In this document: positions 28,422 to 63,725 of the stretch, piece after piece
Layout of the letters: each line of letters opens with the position of its first letter
Numbering within the stretch: the stretch's first letter is position 1
Source: Chromohalobacter marismortui
GTDB lineage: Bacteria; Pseudomonadota; Gammaproteobacteria; Pseudomonadales; Halomonadaceae
DNA length: 64,000 nt
Assembly: GCF_004364315.1 (NCBI RefSeq)
Contig: NZ_SOBR01000002.1
Coordinates: forward strand, 434,001 to 498,000
Direction: 5' to 3'
The notes under the pieces: model-generated
Databases searched by the model: none
Told to the model about the DNA's origin: nothing
What the model saw: the letters and a program-made list of their open reading frames with translations, nothing else
Translations under genes and position numbers: made by a program

Positions 28422-29822
28422 TCAGCGCTGGGCGCGGCGCGATGGCGTGTCGTCGTTCTGCGCCGACTGCGGGTGGGTACTGGGCTTGAAGCTGCTGGGT
28501 TCCAGATCGTGGCGCGCCAGCAGCTTGTAGAAGTCGGTACGGTTGCGCCCGGCGATGCGCGCGGCCTGGGTGACGTTGCCCTCGGTGATCTTCAGCACCT
28601 TGACCAGATAGCTGCGTTCGAAGCCCGCGCGCGCCTCGTTGAACGAGGGCAGCGCGTTTTCCTCGGCCGCCAGCGCCTGGGCCACCAGGGCTTCGGGGAT
28701 GATCGGCGAGCTGGTCAGCGCCACGCACTGCTCGACCACGTTGACCAGCTGGCGCACGTTGCCCGGCCAGGCGCTGGAGGCCAGCAGGTTGAGCGCCTCC
28801 GACGAGAAGCCTTTGACGAAGGGCTTGTGGCGCTCGGCGGCCTGCCCCACCAGGTACTTGGCCAGTAGCGGCACGTCTTCGGCACGCTCCTTGAGGGCCG
28901 GCAGCTTGAGGTTGACGACGTTGAGGCGGTAATAAAGGTCCTCGCGGAAGTCGCCTTCATGCATGGCACGGTCGAGGTCGCGGTGCGTGGCGGAGATGAT
29001 GCGCACGTCGATGGGCACCGAGGTGGTCGAGCCCAGCGGGCGGATCTGGCGTTCCTGCAGCGCGCGCAGCAGCTTGACCTGCAAGGACAGCGGCATGTCG
29101 CCGATCTCGTCGAGGAACAGGCTGCCGCCGTTGGCGGCGAGAAACAGCCCCTCGTGCTGGCTCACCGCGCCGGTGAAGGCGCCCTTGGCGTGGCCGAACA
29201 GCTCGCTTTCCAGCAACTGCTCGGGCAGCGCGCCGCAGTTGATGGCCACGAAGGGCTTGTCGGCGCGTCCGCTCGCCTGATGGATGGCATTGGCCAGCAG
29301 TTCCTTGCCCGAGCCGGAGGCCCCGGTGATCAGCACGCTGACATCGGAGGCCGCCACCATGCGCGCCTGCTCGAGGATGCGTTCCATCTGCGGGCTGCGG
29401 GTGATGATCTCGGCACGCCAGGCATCGTCGCCGGCGCCATGCGTGCTCGCCGTCTGTGACAGGGCCTCCTCGATGGCGGCGAACAGTTCGTCGCGGTCCA
29501 CCGGCTTGGTGAGGAAGCTGAACACCCCCTGACGCGTGGCACTCACCGCGTCCGGGATCGAGCCATGCGCGGTGAGAATGATCACCGGCATGCCCGGCGC
29601 ACGGCGCTGCAGTTCATGAAACAGTGCCATGCCGTCCATTTCATCCATGCGCAAATCGGAGAGCACCAGATCGGGACGGTCCTCGGTCAGGCAATCCAGT
29701 GCCTGGCGTCCGCTTTCAGCGGTGGTCACGCGGTAACCTCGACTTTCCAGGCGCATGCCCAGCAACTTGAGCAGGCTAGGGTCGTCATCGACCAGCAGAA
29801 TATGCGCAGCGGCGTGCTTCAC
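28422..29822 (-). CDS. glrR: GlrR (QseF) sigma-54-dependent response regulator
   Basis: This 466-residue NtrC-type activator has a receiver domain with Asp56 (LVLSDLRMDEMDGM), a sigma-54 AAA+ domain with Walker A GASGSGKELLANAI, the sigma-54 contact loop GAFTGA and Walker B SLFLDEIGDM, and a C-terminal Fis-type helix-turn-helix (NVTQAARIAGRNRTDFYKLL). I chose GTG at 29822 because AAGGAG lies 6 nt upstream and the resulting N-terminus aligns with E. coli GlrR. The longer ATG frame begins at 29867 inside qseG. It should activate the sigma-54 promoter found upstream of glrK. Confidence 0.92.
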   Translation of the reverse strand: MKHAAAHILLVDDDPSLLKLLGMRLESRGYRVTTAESGRQALDCLTEDRPDLVLSDLRMDEMDGMALFHELQRRAPGMPVIILTAHGSIPDAVSATRQGVFSFLTKPVDRDELFAAIEEALSQTASTHGAGDDAWRAEIITRSPQMERILEQARMVAASDVSVLITGASGSGKELLANAIHQASGRADKPFVAINCGALPEQLLESELFGHAKGAFTGAVSQHEGLFLAANGGSLFLDEIGDMPLSLQVKLLRALQERQIRPLGSTTSVPIDVRIISATHRDLDRAMHEGDFREDLYYRLNVVNLKLPALKERAEDVPLLAKYLVGQAAERHKPFVKGFSSEALNLLASSAWPGNVRQLVNVVEQCVALTSSPIIPEALVAQALAAEENALPSFNEARAGFERSYLVKVLKITEGNVTQAARIAGRNRTDFYKLLARHDLEPSSFKPSTHPQSAQNDDTPSRRAQR

Positions 29823-29850
29823 GTCTTTCTCCTTGGGCTCACTCGCACCG

Positions 29851-30381
29851 TCATGGCGATTGCTCATGGCGCGAATTGATACTCTGTTCGATGGCCGTCA
29901 GGGCGTCGAGTTTCTCGGCGAGTTCATCGCGCTCTCGCATCAACGCCTGGCGGCGCGATTCGCTCTTGACCAAGTCGGCGGCCAGGGCCCGGCGACGCTC
30001 GAGACCATTGAGCCACTGTTGCAGCAAGGGCTGCAGGCGGCTCGGCGCCGCCGAAATCTCCGCCTTGTAAAGCTCTGATGCCTGTTCCCAGCCATCGCGC
30101 TCCCCCCACGCCAGTACCGTGGCGCGCGCCAGCTTGAGATGCGGCATATCGCCGTCCAGGCGCGTCAGCATGATCTGGCGCCATTCGCCATCCCCGCGTT
30201 GCGCCGCCAGCCCGAAGGCGACCCAGTCATCCATCAGGCAGACGTTATCCGCCAACGTGGGAATGTCATCATTGCAGGACGTGATCGCGGCTGCCGGCGG
30301 GGACGTGTCTTGTGTCATCCACTGGCACCCGGTCAGCAGCGAGCCAGCGCACAATGCCACTAGCAGCATCCGGATGTTCAT
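29851..30381 (-). CDS. qseG: QseG-like outer-membrane lipoprotein
   Basis: This 176-residue lipoprotein has a lipobox (AGSLLTGCQW, Cys19). A short cysteine-containing domain (ITSCNDDIPTLADNVCLMDD, WVAFGLAAQRG) is followed by a coiled C-terminus (RRQALMRERDELAEKLDAL). Position between glrK and glrR and the overall layout match QseG/YfhG, which in enterobacteria interacts with the kinase QseE/GlrK and tunes signalling. Its start overlaps glrK by 4 nt. Identity rests on context plus size. Confidence 0.8.
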   Translation of the reverse strand: MNIRMLLVALCAGSLLTGCQWMTQDTSPPAAAITSCNDDIPTLADNVCLMDDWVAFGLAAQRGDGEWRQIMLTRLDGDMPHLKLARATVLAWGERDGWEQASELYKAEISAAPSRLQPLLQQWLNGLERRRALAADLVKSESRRQALMRERDELAEKLDALTAIEQSINSRHEQSP

Positions 30382-31898
30382 GCGTTCGAGTTCCTTGCGT
30401 CTAGCGCCGGTGTCGTCGTGGCCGGCGTCGTTATGGAGGCGTCGTCGCCATCGGTTCCTTCCGCCGGCGGCGTCACGTCGGGCAGTGTCAGTCGAAAGCA
30501 GACCGGGAAGGTCTCATCCTCGACCAACTCCAGGCGTCCATTTTGAACCCTGGCGCAATCGGCCGCTACAGACAAGCCGATGCCGGATCCCTTGAGGGCG
30601 CCCTGGCGCCGCATGCGGCCTTGATAGAACGCCTCGAAGAGACGCGAACGGTCGTCATCGTCGATGGGCTCGCCGCTATTGGCGACATCGACCACCAGCC
30701 AGGACGCATGTTGCCAGGCACGTAGCGCCAAATGGCCGTTATCCTCACCGTACGCAATGGCATTGGAAATCAGGTTATCCAGAATCCGCGCCGTGCGATC
30801 CCGGTCCGCCCGCCAGGGCAAGGGCGTATGCCGGGGCCAGTCAACGTGCATGCCCTTCTTGTCGAGCGCCAAGCGATGCTTGGTGAGCACTTCCTGGATC
30901 ACCGTGACCAGGTCGAAACGCGTCACGTTGAGACCACGGCTGTGCTGCATGAGATTATAGTCGAGCAACTGCTCGATCAGCGCCTGAAGTTCCTGACCAC
31001 TGACATCGATCAAGCCGACGATCTCCTGCTGTCGCTCGCTCAATGCTCCGGCGACTCCGTCGGAGAGCAGGGCCGTGCCTTCGCGCACGCTGGCCAGCGG
31101 TGTCTTCAACTCGTGAGACATATGGCGTAGAAACTGCTGCTTCTGGGCCTCCAGCTCGGTGAGACGCCCCGAGAGCCATGTCAGTCGCTCGCCCAGGCTG
31201 ACCAGTTCCGCTGGCCCTTGGATATGCTGCGGCGAGGCCGGTTCCATGCCGCTGCCCAGGCTCAATATCCGCCGCTCGAGCTGACGGATGGGACGAATGA
31301 TCAGACAGGTGAAGATCAACATCAGTCCCAGGCTGACCGAGACCAACGCGGCGGTCTGCATCCATAGCTGCGTGCGCACGGTGCTGGCACGCTCACGGAT
31401 GTTCTCGATGCGCGCATCGATGAGCGTATTGATCGCCTGGCGCACGTTTTCCGTACGTTCCGAGAAGTCGCGGAAGATCGCCAATCGGGCGTGGAATTCG
31501 TCGGCCGGCAATTGCGTCAGTTCATTGAGTTGGTTCAATTGCTCACGCAAGCGGGGAATGTCGGGATTATCGGGCAGCAAGGGGGCAAGCGTGTCGAGCA
31601 ACTCCGCGTAACGCTGGGACTTCTCGTTGTAGATGCTGAGCAATCCCGCCTGCTCGAGCACCGCATATTGGCGAGCGCTGCGCTCCATTTCCAAGGCCAG
31701 ATTGCTCAAGGTGCGGGCGCGACGAGTTTGCTCCACCGCCTGGCGCGCGCTGACATCGGCCAACGACGACAGCTCGGAAAGGGCCTGGCCGGCCTGGAAC
31801 ATGAGTACGGCAATCGGCAGCATCACCATCACGAAGGCGAGCAATACCAATTGCAACAACGAACGAGGACGCCAGCGGCGGGAGACCCGAGTGGTCAT
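30378..31898 (-). CDS. glrK: GlrK (QseE) sensor histidine kinase
   Basis: This 506-residue kinase has a first membrane helix after RWRPRSLLQLVLLAFVMVML, a helical periplasmic domain with LEMERSARQYAVLEQAGLLS as in E. coli GlrK, and a second helix near 190-212. A HAMP linker and FLRHMSHELKTPLASVREGT (phospho-His) follow, then N/G boxes (NLISNAIAYG, GSGIGLSVA). I favour ATG at 31898 because the N-terminus then matches E. coli length. ATG at 31934 adds 12 residues and cannot be excluded. It is the first gene of glrK-qseG-glrR. Confidence 0.9.
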   Translation of the reverse strand: MTTRVSRRWRPRSLLQLVLLAFVMVMLPIAVLMFQAGQALSELSSLADVSARQAVEQTRRARTLSNLALEMERSARQYAVLEQAGLLSIYNEKSQRYAELLDTLAPLLPDNPDIPRLREQLNQLNELTQLPADEFHARLAIFRDFSERTENVRQAINTLIDARIENIRERASTVRTQLWMQTAALVSVSLGLMLIFTCLIIRPIRQLERRILSLGSGMEPASPQHIQGPAELVSLGERLTWLSGRLTELEAQKQQFLRHMSHELKTPLASVREGTALLSDGVAGALSERQQEIVGLIDVSGQELQALIEQLLDYNLMQHSRGLNVTRFDLVTVIQEVLTKHRLALDKKGMHVDWPRHTPLPWRADRDRTARILDNLISNAIAYGEDNGHLALRAWQHASWLVVDVANSGEPIDDDDRSRLFEAFYQGRMRRQGALKGSGIGLSVAADCARVQNGRLELVEDETFPVCFRLTLPDVTPPAEGTDGDDASITTPATTTPALDARNSNA

Positions 31899-32097
31899 GA
31901 GCGCGATTCTATGCAGAAGTAGGGTGGATGCCATGTCAGCTTATCCGCATAGGATAACAGAGTTGCGTTTGCATGCCGGTCTTCGCATCACTACACCGGT
32001 TCGAAGCAAGGGAACCTTCCCAGCAAGGTAACGTCCCGTCCAGTCCATGCACACTCGCCACATTCACCCGATGCACGACGGCATCAGCAAGACGCGC

Positions 32098-32125
32098 AAA
32101 AAAAGTGGGCCGGAAAGACCGGCCC
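32098..32125 (-). terminator. Intrinsic terminator of the candidate RNA
   Basis: On the minus strand GGGCCGG, a 5 nt loop and CCGGCCC are followed by A-C and then seven T. No protein gene ends upstream of it on this strand before argA, 735 bp away, so it must serve a transcript starting in this gap or an argA read-through. Confidence 0.85.
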
Positions 32126-32546
32126 AAGGTACGCAGGGAACTGAAGGGTCAAGTGAACACTCTCGAACATCCACCTGGCTGAACTCTCGAGAGTGATCGA
32201 GGGGCTCGAAAGCCCACGAAGCCATGAGGTCCATACATTGCCAGGAAAAGGCCCTCATGTTGACGGCAGAGCCGCCACTTCGTTTCGTGTGCCACGTCGC
32301 CAAGGGGCGGCGCGGCGATGTTAGCCCCCGAAGGGGGTGGCATCCATGCCTGGGCATCCTTGCCCTTTTGGTACCCTTCCATGCCCGAAGGCGGTACCCG
32401 TCTCATCGCAACCTAAGTCACACATCGCGTGGAGCAGACACTGATCGATCCAACCTGGACTCAACGCACAGGGTGGTGGTCGAAACGCCCTGGGTTGGTC
32501 GATCAAGAAACGGTTCGAGCCGTGTTGAACCGTTTCCCGTTGCTCA
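32098..32546 (-). ncRNA. Candidate sigma-54/GlrR-controlled structured RNA upstream of glrK (glmY position)
   Basis: Between glrK and argA no credible protein frame exists on either strand. The minus strand carries a -24/-12 promoter (32572-32557) whose start would be near 32546, and an intrinsic terminator ending at 32098, predicting about 450 nt. The interval folds by eye into several stems: AAACGGTTC with GAACCGTTT (32508-32535); a 13 bp stem GGTTGGTCGATCA with TGATCGATCCAACC, one bulge (32442-32505); a CCCCC-TTCG-GGGGG hairpin (32324-32338); and GGGCTTTCGAGCCC near 32200. In E. coli glmY lies at the same place and is driven by sigma-54 and GlrR. This RNA is longer than GlmY (about 180 nt), and no primary-sequence identity to GlmY is claimed. 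Confidence 0.65.
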
Positions 32547-32556
32547 CCCCATGTAT

Positions 32557-32572
32557 TGCGATTGCCGTGCCA
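32557..32572 (-). promoter_or_regulatory. Sigma-54 (-24/-12) promoter
   Basis: Minus-strand TGGCACG-GCAA-TCGCA fits the consensus TGGCACG-N4-TTGCW with a single mismatch and the required GG-N10-GC spacing. An A/T-rich tract (about 32573-32610) lies upstream, as expected where DNA bends between activator and polymerase. Confidence 0.7.
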
Positions 32573-32744
32573 GTTTTTAAAAAACAATTTAAAAACAGAT
32601 ACTTGAAAAACACTTCTTCACGCCAACAGCGCACGCCAGGCGCTGACAGCGCGATTAACGGGCATCAGGGTGCCGATAACGTCGCCACTGACCAACGCTC
32701 TTTCGCCGATATACATAAAAACCAATAAAAACAGATAGTTAAAA

Positions 32745-32762
32745 TGTCTCTCTTTGGAGACA
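32745..32762. promoter_or_regulatory. GlrR/QseF-type enhancer site TGTC-N10-GACA
   Basis: TGTC-TCTCTTTGGA-GACA is a perfect match to the dyad bound by GlrR upstream of E. coli glmY. It lies about 200 bp upstream of the expected start of the candidate RNA, a normal enhancer distance for sigma-54 promoters. GlrR itself is encoded 3 kb downstream. Confidence 0.7.
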
Positions 32763-32860
32763 GTCCGCCGGATGGACGCGACACTGCATGCCGGCGAATG
32801 GGCGAGCCTGGGGGCCGCCTTGCCGTCGCACGGCGGCACAGGGCGGCACAGGGCAAGGTC

Positions 32861-34174
32861 TCAACCGAGGGGTTTGAGCAACACCTTGGATTGGCGCGCA
32901 TGGTTATAGGAGTCGCGCCGCAGGTGCGGTAACGCCTCGACCCCGTCGAGACGAAAGCCGCGCTCGAGAAACCAGTGCGTGGTGTGGGTAGTGAGTGCAA
33001 ACAAGGCGCTGTAGCCGCGCCGGCGGGATTCACGCTCGACCTCGGCCAATAGCAGATCGCCGCGCGCGCCACCGCGATAATCGCCATGCACGGCGACACA
33101 GGCCAGTTCCCCCATCTCCGCCTCGGGGTAGGCATGCATGGCACTGCAACCGATGATCATGCCGTCGCGCTCGATCACCCAGTAGTCCTCGATCTGATGC
33201 TCGAGCCGCTCCCGCGAGCGCGCCACCAGCATGCCGCGCTCCTCCAGCGGGCGCAGCAGTTCGAGCAAGCCGCCCACGTCTTCCAGGGTCGCACGGCGCA
33301 ACTGCTCGTAGCGGTGCTGGGTGATCATGGTCCCCACCCCATCGCGGGTGAACAGCTCGCCAAGCAGGGCGTCGCGATCGTGCCAGGTCAGCAGGTGCGT
33401 GCGTGCCACGCCATGGCGCGCCGCTTCGCACGCCGCGCCCAGGTGACGCGCCAGCTCGCTGCCCGGTGCGGCCTGACGCCGTAACGGCTCGGCCTCCAAG
33501 GGAGTGAGCTGGCGCTGCAACATGCCGCTGGCATCATGCAACCCCGCCGCGTCACCGAGCAGAATCAGCTTGTCGGCGCCCAACCCCATGGCCACGTGCT
33601 GGGCGACATCGGCGGCGTCGAGATCGAAGACTTCACCGGTACTCGAATAGCCCAACGGCGGCACCAGTACCAGCGTTTCCTTCGCCAGCAGTTCGGCGAT
33701 GGCCTTGCTGCGCACGCGACGCACCTCGCCGCTGCGATGGAAATCGATGCCATCGCGCACCCCCAACGGCTTGGCGGTCACCAGATTGCCGGAGACCACC
33801 GTCAGCTCGACGCCGTGCAGCGGCGTATTGGGGAGTCCCAGCGACAGGCGTGCTTCGATCTTGAGGCGCAGCTCGGCGGCGATGCGTTCGACATGGCGCA
33901 TGATCGCCTCGTCGGCCACCCAGCGCCCGTCGATCCGGCGCGGCTCGATCCCCGCTTCGCTCAACGCCTCACCGACCTGCGGACGAATGCCGAACACCAT
34001 CACCAGGCGCACGCCCAGGGTGTTCAACAACGCCAGGTCTTGAAGCAGCGGCTCCCATCGCTCGGATGCCAATGCCTCGCCTTCGATGAGCACCACGAAG
34101 GTACGCCCGCGATGCGCATTGATATACGGAGACGAATTGCGAAACCAATCGGCGAAGGGAAAACGAGTGTTCAA
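32861..34174 (-). CDS. argA: N-acetylglutamate synthase
   Basis: This 437-residue enzyme acetylates glutamate with acetyl-CoA, the first step of arginine synthesis. An amino-acid-kinase-like domain occupies residues 1-285 (FVVLIEGEALASERWEPLLQ, LVPPLGYSSTGEVFDLDAAD); it binds arginine for feedback control. A GNAT acetyltransferase domain follows (about 290-437, with AVHGDYRGGARGDLLL as the CoA-binding loop). Length matches the classical bifunctional-looking ArgA. It is a single gene. Its 3' flank contains the GlrR site and the candidate RNA promoter. No strong terminator was seen after it. Confidence 0.95.
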   Translation of the reverse strand: MNTRFPFADWFRNSSPYINAHRGRTFVVLIEGEALASERWEPLLQDLALLNTLGVRLVMVFGIRPQVGEALSEAGIEPRRIDGRWVADEAIMRHVERIAAELRLKIEARLSLGLPNTPLHGVELTVVSGNLVTAKPLGVRDGIDFHRSGEVRRVRSKAIAELLAKETLVLVPPLGYSSTGEVFDLDAADVAQHVAMGLGADKLILLGDAAGLHDASGMLQRQLTPLEAEPLRRQAAPGSELARHLGAACEAARHGVARTHLLTWHDRDALLGELFTRDGVGTMITQHRYEQLRRATLEDVGGLLELLRPLEERGMLVARSRERLEHQIEDYWVIERDGMIIGCSAMHAYPEAEMGELACVAVHGDYRGGARGDLLLAEVERESRRRGYSALFALTTHTTHWFLERGFRLDGVEALPHLRRDSYNHARQSKVLLKPLG

Positions 34175-62630: not shown

Positions 62631-63725
62631 TCACAACGTCGCCGGTCCTACGATTTCCAGATCGCTCATGACCAATTGATCGCGCCCGGCGGACTTGGCG
62701 CGATACAGGCGACGATCGGCCAGGGCGATCAGTTCCTGCACGGAGGCGACTTCGTCGGAGGCAGCCAGCCCCATGGAGAATGTCACCGGCAGGGTCAGCG
62801 TTTCCAGACAACACGGCTGCTCCTCAAGGCATCGGCGAATACGCGATGCTACCGTTAACGCTTCATCCCGGGTACTGTCGGGAAACACGATCAGGAATTC
62901 CTCGCCCCCCACCCGCCCGAGGCGGTCTTCTTCGCGCAAAGCACCGCGCACTATATACGCCAAATGGCGCAAGACCTCGTCGCCTACCGTATGGCCATAG
63001 GTATCGTTGACTTGCTTGAAATGGTCGGCATCGAGCAGCAGCAGCGTGAAGTGGCGCTGTTGATGCCAGAGCATGTCGGCTTCGTGGAAGATGGCGCGCC
63101 GATTAGGCACCTTGGTGAGATAGTCGTGAGTGGCATCACGCCGGAAATGGTGTTCGCAGCGTTCGGTGATCGCATGCAGTCGCCACATGATGCCCCCCAG
63201 GACCAGGAAGACCATCATCAGATTGATGACCTGCAGTGCACGAGACACGCTCGCATCGCGCGTTACCCATGGAATGCCATAGGAGGGCAGCATGATCGCC
63301 ATCAAGGCGACGCTACCGATCGCAACGCTCATGCCAACCTTGTAGCGCACGCTCAGGTCGCTGATCAGGATTTCACAAAGCAACAGGAAGAAATAATATT
63401 CGAAACCGGCGTCGGGGCCGACCCACCATATGCCTATCGACAACATCAGCAGCGTGACCGCCATCTTGACGGTCATCGCCTGCTTCAGTTGCAAACGCCG
63501 ATGCAAGACCAGTGCCACCAGGTTGGCCAGGATGCAAACGACGCTCAGGACGATCATTGCCGGGATCTGCATCGCCACCAGAATGCCGGCAAACACGACA
63601 TGTCCAAGGCTGGCAATCCAGAAGATCTGCGCCATTGCCTGGTAACCGCGTCGTCGCTCCAATGGTAACCCTGGCGGGGTATCACACGACCATGTCCAGA
63701 GCCGCTGCAAGGCTCTTGAAGTCAT
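62631..63725 (-). CDS. Membrane diguanylate cyclase
   Basis: This 364-residue protein has about six hydrophobic segments in residues 35-200, then a GGDEF domain with LLLDADHFKQVNDTYGHTVG, RVGGEEFLIVFPD and ADRRLYRAKSAGRDQ. It is a paralogue of the neighbouring cyclase and is probably a local duplication, by overall layout. ATG 63725 has AAGGGA 8 nt ahead. The 275 bp after its start to the window end show no gene. Confidence 0.9.
   Translation of the reverse strand: MTSRALQRLWTWSCDTPPGLPLERRRGYQAMAQIFWIASLGHVVFAGILVAMQIPAMIVLSVVCILANLVALVLHRRLQLKQAMTVKMAVTLLMLSIGIWWVGPDAGFEYYFFLLLCEILISDLSVRYKVGMSVAIGSVALMAIMLPSYGIPWVTRDASVSRALQVINLMMVFLVLGGIMWRLHAITERCEHHFRRDATHDYLTKVPNRRAIFHEADMLWHQQRHFTLLLLDADHFKQVNDTYGHTVGDEVLRHLAYIVRGALREEDRLGRVGGEEFLIVFPDSTRDEALTVASRIRRCLEEQPCCLETLTLPVTFSMGLAASDEVASVQELIALADRRLYRAKSAGRDQLVMSDLEIVGPATL

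Follow-up and report, generated by a model that had tools for sequence, protein, structure and literature searches.

A probable sigma-54/GlrR-controlled RNA with CsrA-type hairpins and a near-invariant 3' module in the argA–glrK gap of Halomonadaceae

The Qrr sRNAs of Vibrio are under sigma-54 control, and GlmY of E. coli has a length of about 180 nt. In those parts of the cited articles on which we draw, glmY is described with a sigma-54 promoter, three TGT-N12-ACA sites and IHF, and TGT-N12-ACA is given as the consensus of QseF (PMC6075780). RapZ loses its RNA binding when four residues of the C-terminal domain are exchanged (part of PMC7073468), and the SELEX consensus of CsrA is RUACARGGAUGU, presented in six-nt loops (part of PMC7652899). 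Here, we analyzed a 64-kb stretch (the window) of a Chromohalobacter genome of 3.55 Mb, in which argA, a gap of approximately 925 bp, a gene for a glrK-type kinase, a small lipoprotein-like gene and glrR follow each other on the minus strand, on which all features given below with coordinates are located. argA (32861–34174) was recognized by NF003641, and the product of glrR (28422–29867), a sigma-54 response regulator, matched NF011695 with 842.5 bits (cut-off 763). The LuxO model NF041946 reached 340 with this regulator at a cut-off of 800, indicating that it is GlrR and not LuxO. The sensor kinase (30378–31934) contains HisKA and HATPase_c domains and owes its name to the neighborhood of glrR, while the gene at the qseG position (29851–30381) had no family match and is named by position only.

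Judged from its sequence, the gap holds a real and conserved RNA gene that is apparently undescribed. The noncoding RNA is predicted to extend over about 449 nt from 32546 to 32098, with the start placed at the usual distance from the -12 GC and the end at a confirmed intrinsic terminator (32098–32126), in which a stem (32126–32106) is followed by a T run. A sequence-only reading of the same DNA had predicted an RNA of about 450 nt at this site, and the dyad, the -24/-12 promoter, the stem-loops and the terminator that it had claimed for the argA–glrK gap are all present. The 449-nt RNA folds 5.3 standard deviations below shuffled sequences (z -5.3). By DNA search with 511 bp, the region was found in 107 of 151 family genomes and in 18 of 24 genera, the own genome included. 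The best 30 of the 107 matched genomes provided 30 loci (the own locus and 29 relatives), and the order argA–gap–glrK is kept in every one of them. Across the loci that were read, the predicted RNA measures 361–483 nt with the terminator at its end, and a 5' hairpin, a near-invariant element of 28 nt, three GGA hairpins, a variable middle part and a near-invariant 3' end follow each other in the alignment. A C-rich/G-rich hairpin, CCCCC-UUC-GGGGG (32325–32337), is visible in both fold and alignment. The 28-nt element GCGATGTGTGACTTAGGTTGCGATGAGA (32401–32428), delimited in the alignment of relatives, contains GCGATG twice. In the GTDB species collection, 61 stretches carry it, with Halomonas, Chromohalobacter, Salinicola, Litchfieldella, Modicisalibacter, Aidingimonas and Franzmannia as hosts besides one 'Halomonadaceae bacterium' and one 'Gammaproteobacteria bacterium MFB021'. 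It shows invariant G-U pairs (32428–32401) and is neither a Csr site nor a terminator.

That the gap contains no credible protein gene, as the sequence-only reading had stated, was borne out: four ORFs of the gap had no match in Pfam or NCBIfam (further short ORFs lie outside this set), and frame-breaking indels among the relatives together with an in-frame TAA in two loci (L025 and L027) argue against coding in the core. A small ORF starting from ATGTGTGAC within the invariant element was ruled out by the TAA in these two loci and by frame-breaking indels elsewhere. When 390 genomes of the order were searched with a covariance model of the core, 10 Halomonadaceae genomes gave matches and at least eight further genomes of the family gave none. 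Outside the family, 3 of the 390 genomes yielded scores of 19.9–21.7 bits with alignments that look like chance. The weak match at locus L173, also outside the family, has at best a similar GGA pair, and no TGGCA-type promoter was present in the 1.8 kb searched there.

The putative sigma-54 promoter TGGCACGGCAATCGCA (TGGCAC-N5-TCGCA; 32557–32572) is kept in all 30 loci, own included, and the relatives and the own locus share the form TGGCA[CT]-N5-TCGC[AT] (30/30). UAS1, the perfect GlrR/QseF-type dyad TGTCTCCAAAGAGAGACA (32745–32762), is situated 190 bp before the -24 box. It is the sole exact TGTC-N10-GACA in the 64-kb window, for which whole-window shuffles gave an expectation of 0.80, and TGGCACNNNNNTYGCW within one mismatch occurs at 8 places in the window with 6.6 expected. 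Since these counts are near chance for 64 kb, the dyad alone or the -24/-12 element alone is weak evidence. The promoter as a whole is far above chance because the -24/-12 element is kept in 30/30 loci and because dyads occupy preferred positions in 38 promoters. Conservation of both elements in close relatives, on which the sequence-only reading had made its claim depend, was found for the -24/-12 element and not for the perfect form of the dyad, which is imperfect in same-genus loci. At the UAS1 site, 7 of 9 other same-genus loci have 7 of the 8 bases (GACG or GACT), and a 7-of-8 dyad is absent at this position in L002 and L004. UAS2, CGTTGGTCAGTGGCGACG (32680–32697), is located 65 bp downstream of UAS1 and is degenerate in the window (5 of 8), with better formed versions in many relatives, and a possible UAS3, TGTCGCGTCCATCCGGCG (32766–32783; 6 of 8), is weak.

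For the enhancer layout, 58 promoters were thinned by hand for near-duplicates to 38 promoters from 37 loci. In this set, TGTC-N10-GACA with at least 7 of 8 bases occurs 39 times, compared to 4.1 times in 200 mononucleotide shuffles (sd 1.8, maximum 10), TGT-N12-ACA 27 times compared to 2.8 in mononucleotide shuffles, and a pair of 6-of-8 dyads 64–66 bp apart in 26 of the 38 promoters compared to 0.42 in shuffles (maximum 4); the shuffles overstate the significance because orthologues are not independent, and the recurrence of the same spacing at sibling loci is the stronger point. The window promoter is not among the 26 paired ones because its UAS2 has only 5 of 8 bases. Most orthologues have their dyads near -190 and -125, most siblings near -180 and -115. 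Using what we take to be the IHF consensus, we counted 72 IHF-like sites in the relatives, all positions together, compared to 10.7 in 100 shuffles (maximum 20), with pile-ups near -169/-159 and -34. In the window, IHF-like elements with two mismatches are found at -169 (32729–32741), where such sites are enriched in relatives, and at -33 (32593–32605), and none within one mismatch. An exact TGGCAC-N5-TYGCW is also present at 63517–63502 of the window, where the best dyad within 240 bp has 6 of 8 bases. A search for further GlrR targets in the own genome gave 55 matches to TGGCANNNNNNTYGCW (reversed control 32); a perfect dyad within 240 bp exists only at the RNA's own promoter, and two 6-of-8 dyads 64–66 bp apart occur at none of the 55.

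True GlrR (at least 756 bits, two proteins being just under the model cut-off) is encoded in 108 of the 151 family genomes, the next genome of the family reaching 521 bits and the rest about 380 or less. The 3' module of the RNA, described below, was likewise found in 108 of 151 family genomes, and the two sets are identical, with a module copy 2161–2751 bp 5' of glrR in 108/108; this co-occurrence follows genera and is in part explained by shared ancestry and linkage. Considering that the dyads of the 38 promoters are mostly about 65 bp apart and accompanied by IHF-like sites, control by sigma-54 and GlrR is well supported by sequence, and we regard it as very likely that the RNA of the argA–glrK gap is controlled in this way. 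Sigma-54 polymerase would transcribe the conserved noncoding RNA upon activation by the neighboring GlrK/GlrR system. The proposal of a sigma-54/GlrR-driven regulatory RNA at this site has thereby gained support from conservation, from the recurrent enhancer geometry and from a genome set identical with that of GlrR. Through GlrR, a role of the RNA in the cell envelope is possible.

The central block of the RNA contains three hairpins with GGA. Hairpin 1 (32370–32399) carries GGA in an internal loop and shows compensatory changes in two outer-stem and two inner-stem pairs. Hairpin 2 (GGGC-AAGGAU-GCCC; 32352–32365) has a Csr/Rsm-type loop and a closing C-G pair that is replaced by A-U in 5 of 25 rows with GGA kept, and it refolds when cut from its context. 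Hairpin 3 (GGC-AUGGAU-GCC; 32339–32350) has the same type of loop and invariant pairs, and because these never vary, it is without evidence from covariation; the invariant helix shows no compensatory change either. RNAalifold predicted 26 pairs from 25 cores, five of them changed on both sides. Stem covariation was 0.137 compared to 0.083, with 0/500 shuffles as high, and sliding the partners by 1–3 columns lowered the pairing from 99.1% to 30–45%, in both tests with a structure derived from the same alignment. Extra pair types were not above shuffles (13 vs 12.1; 169/500).

The loop sequences CAAGGAUG and CAUGGAUG agree with RUACARGGAUGU, the SELEX consensus, and with its presentation in six-nt loops. 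GGA hairpins were counted by a strict definition chosen post hoc after a loose count (loop of 4–6 nt, at least four Watson-Crick pairs), with 11 other trinucleotides as the control. In 24 hand-picked RNAs of the family, 38 hairpins with loops holding A-N-GGA, the site of CsrA/RsmA, were counted compared to 2.3 in 60 dinucleotide shuffles (maximum 6), and the 11 other trinucleotides gave 1–7 compared to 1.3–3.0, CCT being the highest with 7 vs 2.0. One orthologue and 15 siblings yielded 20 GGA hairpins compared to 1.1 (maximum 5, 200 shuffles). At least two strict GGA hairpins are present in 28 of 30 class-A RNAs, and under the looser definition most RNAs of this class do not exceed shuffles (L001 2 vs 2.9). 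The window RNA has 7 GGA, two of them in strict hairpins and one in an internal loop, which is far fewer than in CsrB; 0.17 strict hairpins were expected, and 16/1000 shuffles were as high. The sibling RNA L144 has 7 GGA hairpins in the loose count. Because 6 of the 24 RNAs lack a strict GGA hairpin and L037, L046 and L151 contain no GGA at all, binding of a Csr-type protein is not the common function of the family. CsrA is encoded in the own genome with L4 and R44, residues marked in the part of PMC7652899 used here, in place. The Rfam CsrB model had no match at the window RNA and its best hit in the own genome had an E-value of 0.53, so that no classic CsrB is recognizable there. In 10 genomes searched, CsrB-like RNAs were found in G113 (35.2 bits) and G121 (33 bits) at a gathering score of 71; the one in G113 (L143, contig C27) has a GacA-type box and stops just before another 3' module. 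In the argA–glrK gap, no GacA-type box was found within three mismatches of the consensus that we assume. Taken as features of the sequence, the hairpins make a Csr-type action of the RNA likely.

Directly before the terminator lies the near-invariant segment TTCAGTTCCCTGCGTACCTT (32126–32145), identified by alignment as a candidate base-pairing seed common to sibling RNAs. TTCAGTTCCCTGCGTAC is nearly invariant and the terminator stem behind it varies, and an invariant segment beside a variable terminator has the look of a base-pairing seed, which makes this function plausible. The 3'-module model R1 is a sequence-only model because RNAalifold gave no terminator, MAFFT having misaligned the stems. 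At least two module matches were obtained in 35 of the 108 genomes, with up to seven in G121, and a search of the own genome with up to three mismatches gave just one module. Many genomes have siblings at other places that share both the layout of the promoter and the near-invariant 3' module. TGGCA-N8-GC[AT] is present upstream of 58 of 67 module places and absent in 9 (L001–L046 and L141–L160, with L145 outside the seed pattern used for this count), and RNA lengths at module places range from 100 to 483 nt. A search for near-complements of the seed (15-mer, up to two mismatches, both strands of 10 genomes) gave 70 matches, some of which are the RNA genes themselves, compared to 145 with the reversed control, and no seed target is supported because the near-complements are not above control.

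Some copies of the module occur in other settings. L146, L147, L154 and L155 have the 3' module and terminator with no matched sigma-54 promoter. In IMG/VR, 3 of 36 stretches with the 16-mer contain the module (viral contigs L188, L189 and L200), two of which (L189 and L200) look the same at the module as L147 and L146, respectively; phages may have copied the seed or may counteract it. Phage and plasmid collections gave no match. A same-genus sibling gene (L141/L342 of G093) with a TTAGC -12 element is located upstream of an ORF starting with MDEHQQ and was not found in the window genome; the siblings L043 and L044 precede an ORF similar to this one. The Rfam model SorY (RF02651) aligned to the 3' module (32176–32100) with 33.8 bits (E 7e-5, gathering 111) and mmgR (RF00519) with 16.5 bits (gathering 41).

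Taken together, we consider it probable that this is a sigma-54/GlrR-controlled RNA that titrates CsrA and has a second, most likely base-pairing module at its 3' end. The hairpins of the central block with their ANGGA loops would bind and titrate CsrA in the manner of a sponge, by which GlrR signaling would relieve CsrA control, and the near-invariant module next to the terminator would confer a second function, most likely base pairing of the Hfq type, which the RNA would have in common with its siblings, mostly under the same type of promoter. If instead the GGA hairpins were ornamental, the family could consist of purely base-pairing, Qrr-like sigma-54 sRNAs, with mRNAs as pairing partners of the 3' module and of the GCGATG element. 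The siblings are indeed defined by the 3' module and include RNAs of about 100 nt without GGA, and Qrr RNAs are siblings with a conserved core of 32 nt under LuxO (part of PMC4211561). However, the enrichment of GGA loops is large and specific for GGA, compensatory changes in the stems surround an unchanged GGA loop, and the near-complement search yielded no seed target, so that we regard this reading as unlikely. Alternatively, there may be no free RNA at all, and the sequence could form a long untranslated leader of the glrK transcript or act in cis within the argA–glrK gap. In favor of this are its place immediately before glrK, in the same orientation, and the possibility that read-through of the terminator feeds glrKGR. 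The conservation of the terminator and the presence of siblings with the same parts at other loci make this extremely improbable.

A further alternative is an analogue of GlmY that would act as decoy or ligand of RapZ and thereby control glmS or the synthesis of envelope precursors, as the sequence-only reading had suggested. Position and promoter type are those of glmY (part of PMC6075780): the RNA lies upstream of glrK and glrR and has a sigma-54 promoter with TGT-N12-ACA sites. A RapZ homologue is encoded in the own genome, and it can be aligned to E. coli RapZ up to L279 of the latter. In contrast to the RNA-binding set of E. coli RapZ, which we take to be K270, K281, R282 and K283, the homologue has serine at the position of K270, and its tail continues with GVQAA after L279 where that of E. 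coli presumably reads EKRKP. The Rfam models for GlmY and GlmZ gave no match, neither at gathering nor with E-values up to 10, by which homology to GlmY is rejected, and the core is better explained by CsrA-type hairpins. A RapZ-dependent function is therefore very unlikely, and the earlier suggestion stands for the switch and the genomic address but not for the product or the route via RapZ and glucosamine, for which neither an Rfam match nor a RapZ with the presumed RNA-binding residues speaks. The analogy to GlmY is confined to switch and address.

Outside Halomonadaceae, 11 of 145 genomes of the order encode a GlrR-like protein (592–703 bits), and the upstream regions of glrK were examined in 10 of them. 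In four (L243, L245, L247 and L248), the gap contains a gene for a small EF-hand protein according to Pfam, with a start that appears hydrophobic by eye. Dyads of 7 of 8 bases are separated by 65 bp in L243, a perfect dyad and one of 6 of 8 bases by 66 bp in L247 and in L248, and L245 has three perfect dyads with other spacings. A TGGCA -24 box is present in each of the four, and the -12 GC is missing in L247 and L248. These four gaps lack strict GGA hairpins, as do those of L244, L251 and L252, and five tested glrK upstream regions outside the family gave no Rfam match. As a tentative interpretation, which we hold to be conceivable rather than probable, the GlrR/sigma-54 enhancer beside glrK might be an exchangeable output slot, occupied by GlmY in enterics, by an EF-hand protein in some other families and in Halomonadaceae by a two-module RNA combining a CsrA sponge with a shared base-pairing 3' tail, which would have been amplified into siblings in many genomes and copied by prophages.

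Among the matches listed for the open-access literature (titles and beginnings of abstracts), none named an RNA of this kind, and none reported a connection of GlrK/GlrR with CsrA, a silence that is a weak sign of novelty. CsrA of Halomonas hydrothermalis was modeled and is 86% identical to E. coli CsrA, with no Halomonas sponge RNA named in the part of this article that we used (PMC12889724). Csr sRNAs were described in Pseudoalteromonas, and GlrR does not occur in the part of the article used here (PMC11882849). If our interpretation is correct, the envelope sensor GlrK/GlrR would be linked directly to the global CsrA network, and one could test if a two-component system is able to retain its promoter while swapping the RNA or protein driven by it. 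Halomonadaceae, which are bioplastic producers and are also used for the production of ectoine, would gain a candidate regulatory RNA that is open to deletion and testing.

Compared to known systems, the locus resembles the glmY-qseE-qseG-qseF locus of E. coli in having a noncoding gene directly upstream of the glrK/qseE–glrR/qseF operon, and it differs from it by an RNA of about 450 nt with CsrA-type hairpins and no match to the covariance model. A weak match of the 3' module to SorY and mmgR, far below gathering, is a lead that possibly reflects likeness of the terminator only. With the Vibrio Qrr RNAs, the family shares multiple sibling sRNAs, one invariant core and an NtrC-type regulator (part of PMC4211561), whereas its activator would be GlrR, its RNAs are mostly much longer, the shared segment is located at the terminator and GGA hairpins are present; the Qrr model of Rfam did not match the window RNA. 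The likeness to CsrB/CsrC and RsmX/Y/Z consists in GGA in hairpin loops with a SELEX-type layout and in the presence of CsrA in the own genome. In contrast to these sponges, the RNA of the argA–glrK gap has few sites per molecule, an additional 3' module, no match to the CsrB model and a promoter of the sigma-54/GlrR type instead of one for GacA/UvrY.
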